From the NCBI GenBank assembly GCA_947492955.1, contig CANLOV010000006.1:186001-250000 (forward strand): a DNA stretch of 64,000 nucleotides, given 5' to 3'. The stretch's first letter is position 1; each line of letters opens with the position of its first letter. Below the pieces are notes generated by a model. It did no database searches. It was not told the origin of the DNA and saw only the letters and a program-made list of their open reading frames with translations. The translations under genes were made by a program, and so were the position numbers. This document shows, piece after piece, positions 59,543-63,176 of the stretch. The DNA comes from an uncultured Cellulophaga sp. GTDB taxonomy: Bacteria; Bacteroidota; Bacteroidia; Flavobacteriales; Flavobacteriaceae.

Positions 59543-59595
59543 TCAATAAAAATATTTGGTAATTGCTGTTTTTTTGGTAAAAATAACAGGAAACA

Positions 59596-59626
59596 TTTGA
59601 TTAAGAAGCCAAAAATACTAAATTTG
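59596..59626 (+). promoter_or_regulatory. Promoter of the thr operon
   Basis: TTTG (59596-59599), exactly 19 bp, then TAAATTTG (59619-59626), an almost ideal Bacteroidota -33/-7 promoter. It lies 16 bp upstream of the leader-peptide ATG at 59643 and 181 bp upstream of the thrA ATG. Confidence 0.75.
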
Positions 59627-59642
59627 GAACTTTATTAGAGAA

Positions 59643-59735
59643 ATGCATATTTACAATACAGACATATATACTAATATTACTACTTTCTTCAATGGCTGTG
59701 CTACAACTACGGCTACTATTACCCCATTGGGGTAA
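59643..59735 (+). CDS. thrL: Threonine-rich leader peptide of the thr operon
   Basis: A 30-codon ORF, ATG 59643 to TAA 59733-59735, reading MHIYNTDIYTNITT then FFNGCATTTATITPLG. Nine of 30 residues are Thr, with a run ACA ACT ACG GCT ACT ATT ACC near the end, and four are Ile. Leader peptides rich in Thr and Ile codons control thrABC in enterobacteria by ribosome stalling. Here the ORF sits just behind a good promoter and ahead of thrA, so the same kind of control is inferred. Its own stop codon lies inside the hairpin at 59712-59740. Confidence 0.7.
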   Translation: MHIYNTDIYTNITTFFNGCATTTATITPLG

Positions 59736-59740
59736 TAAGC
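59712..59740 (+). promoter_or_regulatory. Candidate attenuator hairpin in the thr leader
   Basis: TATTACCCC-ATT-GGGGTAATA (59717-59737), a perfect 9-bp stem, extended by GCT/AGC (59712-59714 with 59738-59740) past a 2-base bulge. CAATGG at 59690-59695 can pair instead with CCATTG at 59724-59729, which would disrupt the stem. No U-run follows, so this is not a standard intrinsic terminator. Confidence 0.5.
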
Positions 59741-59807
59741 TATATATTCGTCTATTTCCTGCATTATATTTATTAAATAATAAATTACATTTTAACCAAC
59801 ATACGTA

Positions 59808-62249
59808 ATGAAAGTTCTAAAATTCGGAGGTACTTCTGTAGCCAACGCAAAAAATATAGCCTTAGTAAAAAATATTGTTGCTAATAACAGTAACAAAACA
59901 GTTGTAGTAGTATCTGCTCTTGGGGGTGTTACCGACTTATTGTTACAAGCAGCAACATTAGCATCAAAACAAGATAAGACCTATAAAGAACAGCTTCAAG
60001 AAATTGAAAACAGACACATAGAAACTATTAAAGATTTTATTCCTATTAGTTCTCAAAGTAAAGTTCTTAGTAAAGTAAAAAGTGAATTAAACACTTTAGA
60101 AGATTTATTAGAAGGTGCTTTTTTAATAGGTGAAATAACACCACAACTATCAGACAAAATAGTAAGCTTTGGCGAGTTGTTATCTTCTTATATTATAAGC
60201 GAGTATTTTATTTCTGAGCAAATGAATGCTAGTTATAAAGATAGTAGAGAACTTATAAAAACAAATGACAATTACGGAAAAGCTGCTGTAGATTTTAAAA
60301 TCACAAATGCTAATTGTAAAGATTTTTTCTTAAACAATACTAGTAAAATAACAGTAGTAGCTGGTTTTATTTCTTCTTCTGTAAATAACAACCCTACTAC
60401 ATTAGGTCGTGGTGGTTCAGATTATACGGCTGCTATTATTGCTGCTGCTACAGATGCAGAAGCATTAGAAATATGGACAGATGTAAGTGGTATGTATACT
60501 GCAAACCCTAAATTGGTAAAACAAGCCGTTGCTATTCCTCATATATCATATGAAGAAGCTATGGAATTATCACATTTTGGAGCTAAAGTACTATACCCTC
60601 CTACGATACAACCTGTTTTATCTAAAGGAATTTCAATTGTTATAAAAAATACTTTTAAACCAGAAGATAATGGTACTTTAATTACCAAAAATAAAAACGA
60701 AAAAGGAAAAACAGTAAGAGGCATTAGTCATGTAGAAAATATTGCTTTATTATCTTTAGAAGGTCCTGGAATGGTTGGTATTCCTGGTATCTCTAAACGT
60801 TTTTTCGAAGTATTATCTAATTCAGAAATTAGTGTAGTTCTTATTACACAAGCATCTTCTGAACACTCTATATGTATAGGTGTTGCTGATAATGATGCAA
60901 AAAATGCAGCTACCATTATCAACGAAGCTTTTGAATACGAAATATCTTTAGGTAAAATAAACCCAATAGCTATTGAAAAAGATTTAGCTATTATAGCTTT
61001 GGTTGGCGACAACATGAAAAGTCACCAAGGTTTAAGCGGAAAAATGTTTAGTACTTTAGGTAAAAACAATGTAAATATTAGAGTTATAGCGCAAGGAGCA
61101 TCTGAACGTAATATTTCTGCCGTTATCGCTAAAAACGACGTAAAAAAAGCGCTAAATGCATTGCATGAAGAGTTTTTTGAAGAAAACATAAAACAACTAA
61201 ACCTATTTGTAATGGGGGTTGGTAATGTTGGTGCTAAATTTTTAAATCAGATAAAACAACAGAAAAAATTCTTAAAAGAAAATCTAAAACTAAATATTAG
61301 AGTTATTGGAATAAGTAATTCTAGAACTATGTTTTTTGATGAATCTGGAATATCTCTTAAAAATTGGAAAACAGAATTAGCAAGCGGACAAAAAGCTAAT
61401 AAAGACAAATTCTTTGAAACAGTACAAAAATTAAATTATCGCAACAGTATTTTTGTAGATAATACCGCCAGTGCAGATGTGGCAGATAATTATGCATCAT
61501 ACTTAGGAAATAGCATATCTATTGTTACTTGTAATAAAATTGCATGTTCTTCTGAATATGACAACTATAAAAATTTAAAAGACTTATCTAGAAAATACAA
61601 TGCTCCTTTCCTATTCGAAACTAATGTAGGTGCAGGTTTACCAATTATAGACACACTTAAACATTTAATAGCTTCGGGTGATAAAGTATTAAAAATACAA
61701 GCTGTGTTATCTGGTAGTTTAAATTTCGTTTTTAATAATTTTAATAACAAAACTACCTTCCACGATATTGTAAAAGAAGCGCAAGCAGAAGGTTATACAG
61801 AACCAGACCCAAAAATAGATTTAAGTGGTATAGATGTAATGCGAAAAATATTAATCTTGGCTCGTGAAAGCGGAAACAAGATTGCAATTGAAGAAATAGA
61901 AAACAAATCGTTTTTGCCACAAGAAAGTTTAGACACTACAAATAACGAAGATTTCTTTGCTTCTTTAGTTAAGCATGAAGCATCGTTCCAAGAAATATAT
62001 AAAAGTGCCGCAGATAAAGATTGTAAATTAAAATATGTTGCACAGTACGAAAACGGAAAAGCTAGTGTTGGTTTACAAGAAATACCTAAAGGCCACGATT
62101 TTTATAACCTAGAGGGTAGTGATAATATTGTATTATTTTACACAGAAAGGTATCCTAACCAACCAATGATTATAAAAGGTGCTGGTGCTGGTGCAGATGT
62201 TACAGCTTCTGGTATCTTTGCAGATATTATTAGAATTGGAAACTTTTAA
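59808..62249 (+). CDS. thrA: Bifunctional aspartokinase / homoserine dehydrogenase
   Basis: An 813-residue enzyme catalysing the first and third steps from aspartate to threonine and methionine. Aspartokinase (1-~300) has KFGGTSVANAKNI, then TLGRGGSDYTAAI and GAKVLYPPTI. Two ACT domains (~315-465) bind regulatory threonine (GMVGIPGISKRFFEVLSNSE and GKMFSTLGKNNVNIRVIAQG). Homoserine dehydrogenase (~465-813) has the NADPH motif VMGVGNVGAKFL, then FETNVGAGLPIIDTLKHL and the catalytic Lys region with EGYTEPDPKIDLSGIDVMRK. Length and order match E. coli ThrA. It is the first structural gene after the leader peptide. Confidence 0.96.
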   Translation: MKVLKFGGTSVANAKNIALVKNIVANNSNKTVVVVSALGGVTDLLLQAATLASKQDKTYKEQLQEIENRHIETIKDFIPISSQSKVLSKVKSELNTLEDLLEGAFLIGEITPQLSDKIVSFGELLSSYIISEYFISEQMNASYKDSRELIKTNDNYGKAAVDFKITNANCKDFFLNNTSKITVVAGFISSSVNNNPTTLGRGGSDYTAAIIAAATDAEALEIWTDVSGMYTANPKLVKQAVAIPHISYEEAMELSHFGAKVLYPPTIQPVLSKGISIVIKNTFKPEDNGTLITKNKNEKGKTVRGISHVENIALLSLEGPGMVGIPGISKRFFEVLSNSEISVVLITQASSEHSICIGVADNDAKNAATIINEAFEYEISLGKINPIAIEKDLAIIALVGDNMKSHQGLSGKMFSTLGKNNVNIRVIAQGASERNISAVIAKNDVKKALNALHEEFFEENIKQLNLFVMGVGNVGAKFLNQIKQQKKFLKENLKLNIRVIGISNSRTMFFDESGISLKNWKTELASGQKANKDKFFETVQKLNYRNSIFVDNTASADVADNYASYLGNSISIVTCNKIACSSEYDNYKNLKDLSRKYNAPFLFETNVGAGLPIIDTLKHLIASGDKVLKIQAVLSGSLNFVFNNFNNKTTFHDIVKEAQAEGYTEPDPKIDLSGIDVMRKILILARESGNKIAIEEIENKSFLPQESLDTTNNEDFFASLVKHEASFQEIYKSAADKDCKLKYVAQYENGKASVGLQEIPKGHDFYNLEGSDNIVLFYTERYPNQPMIIKGAGAGADVTASGIFADIIRIGNF

Positions 62250-62252
62250 TGT

Positions 62253-63176
62253 ATGAGTAACGAAATACGTATTTTTTGCCCTGCTACTATTGCTAATGTC
62301 TCTTGTGGGTTCGATGTTCTTGGACTTGCCTTAGATGCTGTTGGCGACGAAATGGTTATTCGTAAAACCAAAGAAAAAGGTATAAAAATTACAAAACTAG
62401 AAGGACAAAATCTTCCTATGGAAACGCTAAACAATGTAGCTGGTGTAGCTGGCTTAGCATTATTAGCAGAAAGTGATTACCAAGGCGGATTTGAAATTGA
62501 AATTTACAAGAAAATTAAAGCCGGTAGCGGCATTGGTAGTAGTGCAGCAAGCTCTACAGGTGCAGTATGGGCTATGAATGAACTTTTAGGAAAGCCCTTT
62601 TCTTCTTTAGAATTGGTACAATTTGCTATGGAAGGAGAGCGTTTAGCTAGCGGAGTGGCACACGCAGATAATGTAGCACCTGCCATCTACGGTGGTTTTA
62701 CATTGGTAAGAAGCTATGCTCCTTTAGATATTATAAAAATACATACGCCTAGCGAATTATACGCAACTGTAATTCATCCGCAGATAGAAGTAAAAACTGC
62801 AGACTCTAGAAAAATATTAAAAACATCCATTGAATTAAAAGACGGAATTAAACAATGGGGAAATGTTGGTGGGTTAATCGCTGGTTTATATACAGAAGAC
62901 TATGATTTAATCGGCAGATCTCTAGAAGACCATATTGTAGAACCTATACGCTCTATACTAATTCCAGGTTTTGATAAGTTAAAGTCAGAAAGTTTAAAAG
63001 CTGGCGCATTAGGATGTAGCATCTCTGGCTCTGGACCTTCAGTATTTACCTTAAGTAGAGGAGAAAAAACGGCTCTTAAAGTAGCAGATAGCATGCGTAA
63101 GGTTTACAATAATTTTGGAATTGATTTTGATATTCATGTATCAAAAATTAATCTAGAGGGAATAAAGCAATTATAG
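62253..63176 (+). CDS. thrB: Homoserine kinase
   Basis: Phosphorylates homoserine to O-phosphohomoserine, the substrate of threonine synthase. It is a GHMP kinase of 307 aa. It opens with IFCPATIANVSCGFDVLGLA, has the ATP motif KIKAGSGIGSSAASSTGAVW, then GVAHADNVAPAIYGGFTLV, and the C-terminal GALGCSISGSGPSVFTL. It starts 3 bp after the thrA stop, so the genes are translationally close. Confidence 0.96.
   Translation: MSNEIRIFCPATIANVSCGFDVLGLALDAVGDEMVIRKTKEKGIKITKLEGQNLPMETLNNVAGVAGLALLAESDYQGGFEIEIYKKIKAGSGIGSSAASSTGAVWAMNELLGKPFSSLELVQFAMEGERLASGVAHADNVAPAIYGGFTLVRSYAPLDIIKIHTPSELYATVIHPQIEVKTADSRKILKTSIELKDGIKQWGNVGGLIAGLYTEDYDLIGRSLEDHIVEPIRSILIPGFDKLKSESLKAGALGCSISGSGPSVFTLSRGEKTALKVADSMRKVYNNFGIDFDIHVSKINLEGIKQL

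Follow-up and report, generated by a model that had tools for sequence, protein, structure and literature searches.

A conserved threonine-rich leader ORF ending at a stop-codon hairpin upstream of thrA in Flavobacteriaceae: a candidate attenuator without an intrinsic terminator

In enterobacteria, the thr operon is preceded by an attenuator (thrL; Thr_leader in Rfam), which is composed of a leader ORF with Thr and Ile codons, a terminator, and an antiterminator. In the trp and his leaders, a hairpin-stabilised pause synchronises the ribosome and the RNA polymerase, and tnaC combines a conserved arrest peptide with Rho dependence. As for the phylum considered here, a comparative study by Vitreschak and others, which appeared in FEMS Microbiol Lett in 2004, is said to have predicted amino-acid attenuators in Bacteroidetes/Chlorobi as well. 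In the portions of the published reports consulted, toiL-topAI of E. coli provides a precedent for a regulatory upstream ORF (uORF) with Rho-dependent termination (PMC12121999), and Flavobacterium psychrophilum, a member of the same family as the genome studied here, gives strong clues of leader-peptide attenuation before amino-acid operons, with pheA and hisG named among the conserved structured 5' elements (PMC9723704). From the portions consulted as well, the B. thetaiotaomicron map reports, in long 5' UTRs, sORFs that recall leader peptides (PMC7366714), a leader-gene survey covers Bacteroidetes (PMC4833913), and the ribosome profiling text on F. johnsoniae makes, in the part consulted, no mention of an upstream ORF/uORF, attenuation, or threonine (PMC6847099). 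No description of the thrA element presented here was found for flavobacteria in the open-access literature among the matches listed.

The element studied here lies on the forward strand of a 64-kb window (the whole stretch of DNA that was analysed), directly upstream of two thr genes in the order thrA, thrB. The thrA gene (59808-62249) encodes a fused bifunctional aspartokinase/homoserine dehydrogenase I (NF006959, 1060 bits against a cut-off of 726), and thrB (62253-63176) encodes homoserine kinase (NF002288, 399 bits against a cut-off of 194). A promoter of the form TTG-N19-TAAATTTG was read from the sequence at 59597-59626, with TTG at 59597-59599, a gap of 19 nt, and TAAATTTG at 59619-59626; it agrees with the Bacteroidota consensus and we take it to be a promoter of the Bacteroidota type. 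A TAnnTTTG element was found at the expected position in 130 of 167 loci (150 family loci and 17 congeners) and is very similar in near relatives. The leader ORF (59643-59735) encodes MHIYNTDIYTNITTFFNGCATTTATITPLG, whose 30 codons include 9 for Thr and 4 for Ile, and its end is separated from thrA by 72 nt. The stop codon TAA (59733-59735) is inside the 3' arm of a hairpin, P1 (59717-59737), in which 59717-59725 pair with 59729-59737 to form 9 bp around the loop ATT and which also includes the last Thr codon, ACC; an outer extension adds 3 bp (59712-59714 with 59738-59740). The promoter, the 30-codon ORF with its Thr and Ile codons, and the 9+3 bp hairpin had been proposed from the sequence-only reading, and all of them are present.

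In many relatives, an extended inverted repeat resembling AAAAGTANTACWTTTG runs across the -7 element of the thrA promoter (59611-59626 in the window). The extended pattern gave 18 matches in 17 of 60 genomes, and by coordinates 10 of these matches are at thrA; the window's own copy of the repeat is degenerate, and the extended pattern does not match there. The inverted repeat may be a candidate operator.

The locus resembles the enterobacterial thrL in having a short Thr/Ile-rich leader ORF before thrA-thrB, with the stop codon near hairpins. It differs from thrL in that no U-run terminator and no conserved antiterminator pairing were found, the stop codon is inside or beside a hairpin, and Rfam gives no match. 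Rfam reported no gathering-score match anywhere in the 64-kb window, Thr_leader and T-box included, and at E <=5 only three weak matches in 59560-59830, all to unrelated families; at E <=10, no NCBIfam family was matched by the 30-aa leader peptide. Since two defining features fail, namely the intrinsic terminator and a conserved antiterminator pairing (judged by eye and from the covariation list of group B, described below), the element was not filed as a member of the classic attenuators. It had been suggested from the sequence alone that the hairpin holds the stop codon and is without a U-run, with which the sequence and the terminator scan agree, and that the control is therefore unlike that by the enterobacterial terminator. 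The latter view also fits the wider survey, as the T-run terminator scan of the window found none between the leader and thrA, and a terminator-like site between P1 and thrA is seen in only 5 of 114 comparable family loci (type II, defined below), against 1.5 expected.

For the comparison with relatives, 199 genomes of the family were sampled, one per genus, of which 170 had a thrA match; the 150 listed loci were used, and the other 20 genomes were not. The set of 150 includes the window itself (L001), and 17 other genomes of its genus were added. A locus was called type II when it matched the expressions for P1, a hairpin formed by a C-run and a G-run, and had an ORF with at least 2 Thr codons that stops within P1 or no more than 15 nt behind it. 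Such leaders were found at 114 of 150 family thrA loci and at 17 of 17 congeneric ones, so the alignment of thrA upstream regions that had been proposed as a check shows both the Thr-rich ORF and the stop-codon hairpin to be conserved. Although the type II rule itself partly selects the Thr figures and the stop position, a chance test on Thr within 15 codons is free of that selection. When the hairpin was ignored, 71 of the 150 family loci had an ORF of 12-60 codons upstream of thrA in which a stretch of 15 codons carries 5 Thr or more; shuffles predict 2.4 such loci, and the antisense strand has 0. Applied to other residues, the test was passed by 54 of the 150 loci for Leu, 29 for Ile, and 16 or fewer for each of the rest; Thr-codon repeats read in another frame may be the source of the Leu excess.

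Wider samples of the order and of the phylum comprised 118 genomes each, of which 54 and 51, some from the same family, had a match; together with 20 further stretches they yielded 67 loci, 62 of them from genomes new to the set. Type II leaders occurred in 20 of these 62, that is, in 9 of 10 from the same family and 11 of 52 from outside it. Four of them (L199, L202, L203, L204) come from another class of the phylum and have the stop codon in the hairpin loop. Many outgroup loci, for example those of the small genomes L186-L196, had no such leader, and the outgroup row L232, which was anchored at the wrong place, was counted as a miss. The 234 rows in all contain five genomes twice (L173, L180, L183, L184, L185); with three type II loci among the repeats, the 154 type II rows represent 151 distinct loci. 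Counts across genera are inflated by the relatedness of the loci, and the statistics are not corrected for the tree. Inspection by eye of three loci from another family of the class (L210, L214, L216), which were left uncounted, revealed hairpins with swapped arms, the G-run coming first (ACGGG..CCCGU), whose loop holds the stop codon.

An in-frame ACC Thr codon forms the start of P1 in 154 of 154 type II rows. The stop codon varies in position: 33 rows have it in the loop, 59 at the end of the second arm, and 62 at 1-14 nt behind the hairpin. The idea that P1 is kept in different reading frames was thus wrong; only the bases behind ACC differ. In the type II rows, the median leader has 33 codons and 7 Thr, the median distance from P1 to thrA is 83 nt, and Thr makes up 32% of the last 15 codons vs 12% of those before. 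The peptide C-termini vary across the 154 rows, TPLG (40 rows) and LWGC (18 rows) being the commonest, with TITP and PFGV also found, and a conserved arrest peptide was ruled out by this variation. By eye, the leader peptide of the window is nearer to those of Maribacter-like genera than to those of its own genus-mates (L033-L049), many of which start with MDS or LDN.

The segment around P1 folds more stably than expected: 59686-59765 has a predicted energy of -19.3 kcal/mol and a z of -2.63, and none of 200 shuffles was equally stable. The z of the whole leader (59626-59810) is modest (-1.87; 7 of 200 shuffles equally stable). Over the 114 type II family loci, the structure z was -1.12 within <=75 nt before P1 and -1.34 in the P2 region, compared with -0.09 in a far-upstream control. 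In the minimum free energy (MFE) fold of the window, a hairpin H1 (59693-59715) with Thr codons in its loop forms within the leader ORF, and a second hairpin, P2 (59768-59785; ATTTATT AAAT AATAAAT), which consists of A+T only in the window and is without a U-run behind it, forms before thrA. The sequence AUUUUUAUUUUU comes after P2 in some congeners. Between P1 and P2 there is a motif with an AU-rich core, M (CTATATATTCGTCTA, 59740-59754). In 122 of 154 type II rows, a core of the ATAT type lies no more than 24 nt from P1, mostly 6-11 nt away, against 32.3 rows expected from mononucleotide shuffles. Common forms of the core are TATATATTCGTCCG for the Maribacter-Cellulophaga group and TATATATTCTTCAGG for group B, while CATATCATCC recurs across several further genera and families. 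Groups A, B, and C were set by likeness of the leader and not as clades.

Three helices were tested for covariation in group B. There, the ORF hairpin (helix X), which sits further upstream than H1, has two-sided changes in 7 of 8 pairs; P2, the position of which covaries, has them in 4 of 8 pairs; and P1, with 93.3% of cells paired and 3 of 6 pairs invariant, has them in 1 of 6. When X, P1, and P2 were taken together, 90.6% of cells pair vs 37-54% in slid controls, and 39 cells carry two-sided changes vs 10.0 in shuffles. On these alignments, covariation is strong in two of the three helices across the 30 genera of group B. Among the congeners, the ORF hairpin occurs in two registers, so it was not counted on one alignment. 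The P1 loop varies in length and is mostly of 3 or 4 nt.

Two long-range pairings were considered. A possible helix P0, in which AGAC at 59660-59663 pairs with GTCT at 59750-59753 and thus joins the start of the leader with M, appeared in MFE folds and seemed convincing locus by locus; nevertheless, it passed the swap test in the Maribacter-like group only, where 23 of 2000 permutations were as good, against 828 in the congeners, 323 in group B, and 1577 in group C, and it was set aside. The mutually exclusive pairing that had been proposed from the window alone was borne out as far as the letters go, since CAATGG at 59690-59695 can pair with CCATTG at 59724-59729. However, both strands are found in only 3 of 154 type II rows, and the pair is kept in 2 of 22 Maribacter-like rows and in 0 of 17 congeners, so that its conservation failed.

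We then asked where else such an element occurs, using a covariance model of P1-M that was built partly from the same loci and has training loci among its matches. Its best match was just upstream of thrA in 18 of 18 genomes of the genus. In 40 relatives it gave 30 matches at E <=0.5 in 25 genomes, of which 20 lay, by coordinates, immediately before thrA; the 10 elsewhere were weaker (E 0.04-0.43), and three that were inspected were not leaders of the P1 kind. In 100 genomes of the family it gave 46 matches at E <=0.05 in 45 genomes, of which 43 lay before an aspartokinase gene (42 at thrA by coordinates, 1 by sequence), 1 before thrB, and 2 elsewhere. The match before thrB (L350, about 200-400) has a Thr leader, a hairpin, and an M-like motif before thrB instead of thrA, and the sole aspartokinase/homoserine dehydrogenase match of that genome is weak (E 3.0e-126). 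Judging from these searches, the P1-M element is almost confined to thr genes. Because of the training overlap, and since only 45 of the 100 genomes were found, the search speaks for specificity and not for sensitivity or independent discovery. The genome has a further aspartokinase/homoserine dehydrogenase (L031), which shares 37% identity with thrA and stands directly behind another reading frame; no leader of the P1 kind was found in the 600 bases before it.

Classic-looking leaders also occur in these bacteria. A Thr leader with a U-run terminator was found in the family at L159, L164, and L168 by the scan and at L158 by eye, and outside it at L212, L215, L225, and L228 by eye; a terminator-like site is present at 6 of the 36 non-type II loci of the family. 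In the window's own genome, hisG (L170, reverse strand, about 1195-1320) is preceded by a short leader, MRNKNTHHHFNTCYQAS, with three His codons, followed, as seen by eye, by an 11-bp hairpin and a T-run, which suggests that leader-peptide attenuators are in use in this genome. Since the same genome seems to use classic attenuators, the missing terminator is particular to the thrA element. The element shares with these U-run leaders an amino-acid-rich peptide before the matching operon; it differs from them in that P1 at the stop codon, M, and P2 take the place of a hairpin and T-run before the gene.

The effect of a leader ribosome on the RNA was estimated with a footprint model in 140 of the 154 type II rows, in which the ribosome makes the RNA unavailable for pairing between -17 and +12 of the A-site codon, an E. 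coli-like assumption. With the ribosome on a middle Thr codon, the mean P1 score was 0.49 and exceeded the at-stop score in 119 of 140 rows; the at-stop score of 0.00 follows from the assumed footprint, which covers P1. Access to the thrA start was predicted to be 0.55 with a stalled ribosome vs 0.56 with one at the stop codon, the P2 region to have 9.79 vs 10.18 pairs, and M to have 3.17 vs 1.96 pairs with upstream RNA. These scores point to P1 as the part that would feel the ribosome and disfavour a control of the thrA start.

The stretch from P1 to thrA has a skewed base content, with 17.2% C and 7.2% G in the 114 type II family loci, compared with 13.9% C and 12.5% G in the 80 nt before family thrA genes that lack the element. 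C exceeded G in 112 of 114 type II loci vs 19 of 36 other family loci (Mann-Whitney p 1.9e-9, uncorrected for relatedness). A Rho RNA-binding domain is encoded in the window's own genome. Because of the C-over-G bias between P1 and thrA and the presence of Rho, factor-dependent premature termination is favoured as the output; the bias is no proof of a rut site, as the C content is only 17%.

From these observations, we propose that the element regulates the thr operon in response to threonine, as a leader that would work in three steps. When charged Thr-tRNA is scarce, the ribosome would slow on the Thr-codon cluster of the leader, a step for which the comparison speaks well; a stalled leader ribosome would thus very probably report threonine shortage, as far as this can be read from the conserved leaders. 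The position of the ribosome would then set whether P1 forms beside the RNA polymerase as it crosses M. The geometry of this second step is seen in the loci, for a ribosome on the stop codon covers P1, which often remains free when the ribosome is halted earlier, at the Thr codons; the effect on the polymerase is what we infer. In the last step, which is the weakest, enough threonine would have the ribosome released inside P1, and the naked, G-poor RNA from P1 to thrA would be open to a termination factor, most likely Rho, so that transcription would not reach thrA or would end early within it. When threonine is short, the ribosome would be held on the Thr-codon stretch, P1 would stay folded, and the polymerase would enter thrA. 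P1 and M would together be a ribosome-sensitive pause module of an attenuator without an intrinsic terminator. Factor-dependent premature termination, perhaps by Rho, fits best as the output, and the P1-M distance, variable between loci, would roughly suit a hairpin-stabilised pause, by analogy with the trp and his leaders. As in E. coli tnaC and toiL-topAI, ribosome stalling in an upstream ORF would decide premature termination without an intrinsic terminator. Unlike tnaC, the C-terminus varies here, and stalling would be by codons. toiL, in the part of its report consulted, changes access to the ribosome-binding site (PMC12121999), whereas the footprint model shows no such change at thrA. 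Some points stand against the scheme: the placing of the stop codon at P1 is in part a product of how rows were chosen, Leu also passes the chance test in 54 of the 150 family loci, P1 could refold after the ribosome departs, no conserved alternative pairing that would tie P1 to a later event was seen by eye or in the group B covariation list, and the Rho step alone does not account for the conservation of M and P2. On balance, we regard the three-step scheme as a whole as having slightly less than an even chance of being right.

An unlikely but serious alternative is an intrinsic attenuator with a non-canonical terminator, in which P1 or P2 would halt the polymerase without a U-run and the ribosome position would decide whether that hairpin forms. 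P2 is conserved and covaries before thrA in group B, AUUUUUAUUUUU follows it in some congeners, true intrinsic terminators stand at thrA in the four family loci named above (that of L158 by eye) and at hisG of the same genome (by eye), and the 5 terminator-like sites among the 114 type II loci exceed expectation. However, the other 109 of these loci have no such site, the P2 of the window is A+T only, and pairing in the P2 region is nearly constant in the footprint model. Somewhat less probable again is translational control, in which the leader ribosome would alter access to the thrA start or an overlapping second frame would couple its translation to thrA. Such a frame is present at 59692-59808: its 38 codons begin with an ATG inside the leader and run through P1, M, and P2, and its stop codon overlaps the thrA ATG. 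Between P1 and thrA, 71 of 154 rows have at least one uninterrupted frame vs 50.8 in shuffles; in group B, a single frame stays open as far as -12 in 27 of 30 rows vs 5.8, and in 20 of the 30 rows stop-making changes are rare (2 vs 10.4). The higher pairing of M with upstream RNA in the stalled state also agrees with this reading. The group B frame, in contrast, shows no third-position excess in those 20 rows and scarcely any excess of synonymous changes (40 vs 36.3), the open frame differs between groups A and B and is present in no more than 15 of 23 group A rows and 11 of 17 congeners, against 7.9 and 5.9 expected, and the predicted access to the thrA start is equal whether the ribosome is stalled or terminating.

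We consider it improbable that P1 or the promoter palindrome is a DNA operator bound by a threonine repressor, with the leader ORF of little weight. P1 is a near-perfect palindrome whose core pairs are invariant in group B, and AAAAGTANTACWTTTG-like promoter sequences occur in many relatives, with more than half of the extended-pattern matches (10 of 18) at thrA. Nevertheless, the P1 loop is variable in length, one outer pair in group B changes on both sides and G-U pairs are present, and an operator has no need for an in-frame Thr codon at the start of P1 in every type II row or for a place at the end of a Thr-rich ORF, as in 114 of the 150 loci of the family. An operator acting on initiation could still add to control by the leader. 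That the ORF and the hairpin arose by accident and are without function is scarcely credible; little beyond the modest z of the whole leader speaks for it, and it is refuted by the comparison, in which conservation, covariation, and Thr enrichment all count against it.

Leader-peptide control is textbook in enterobacteria and thinly described in Bacteroidota. In the part of the F. psychrophilum report consulted, the main text never mentions threonine, and the section on attenuation contains no thrA, stop-codon hairpin, or M (PMC9723704). The conserved threonine leader described here, which extends across many genera and beyond a single class, retains the sensor and dispenses with the terminator. 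It is quite possible, with slightly less assurance than for the scheme itself, that many thr leaders of Bacteroidota form a distinct class of amino-acid attenuators without a terminator-antiterminator pair, in which a hairpin that carries the last sensor codon and contains or adjoins the stop codon is followed by the conserved M, a motif nearly confined to thr genes that the polymerase or an unknown factor may read. If the output is factor-dependent, the element would offer a natural and easily assayed system for transcription-translation coupling and Rho, which are little studied in the phylum, and the classic-looking His leader in the same genome would serve as a built-in control.
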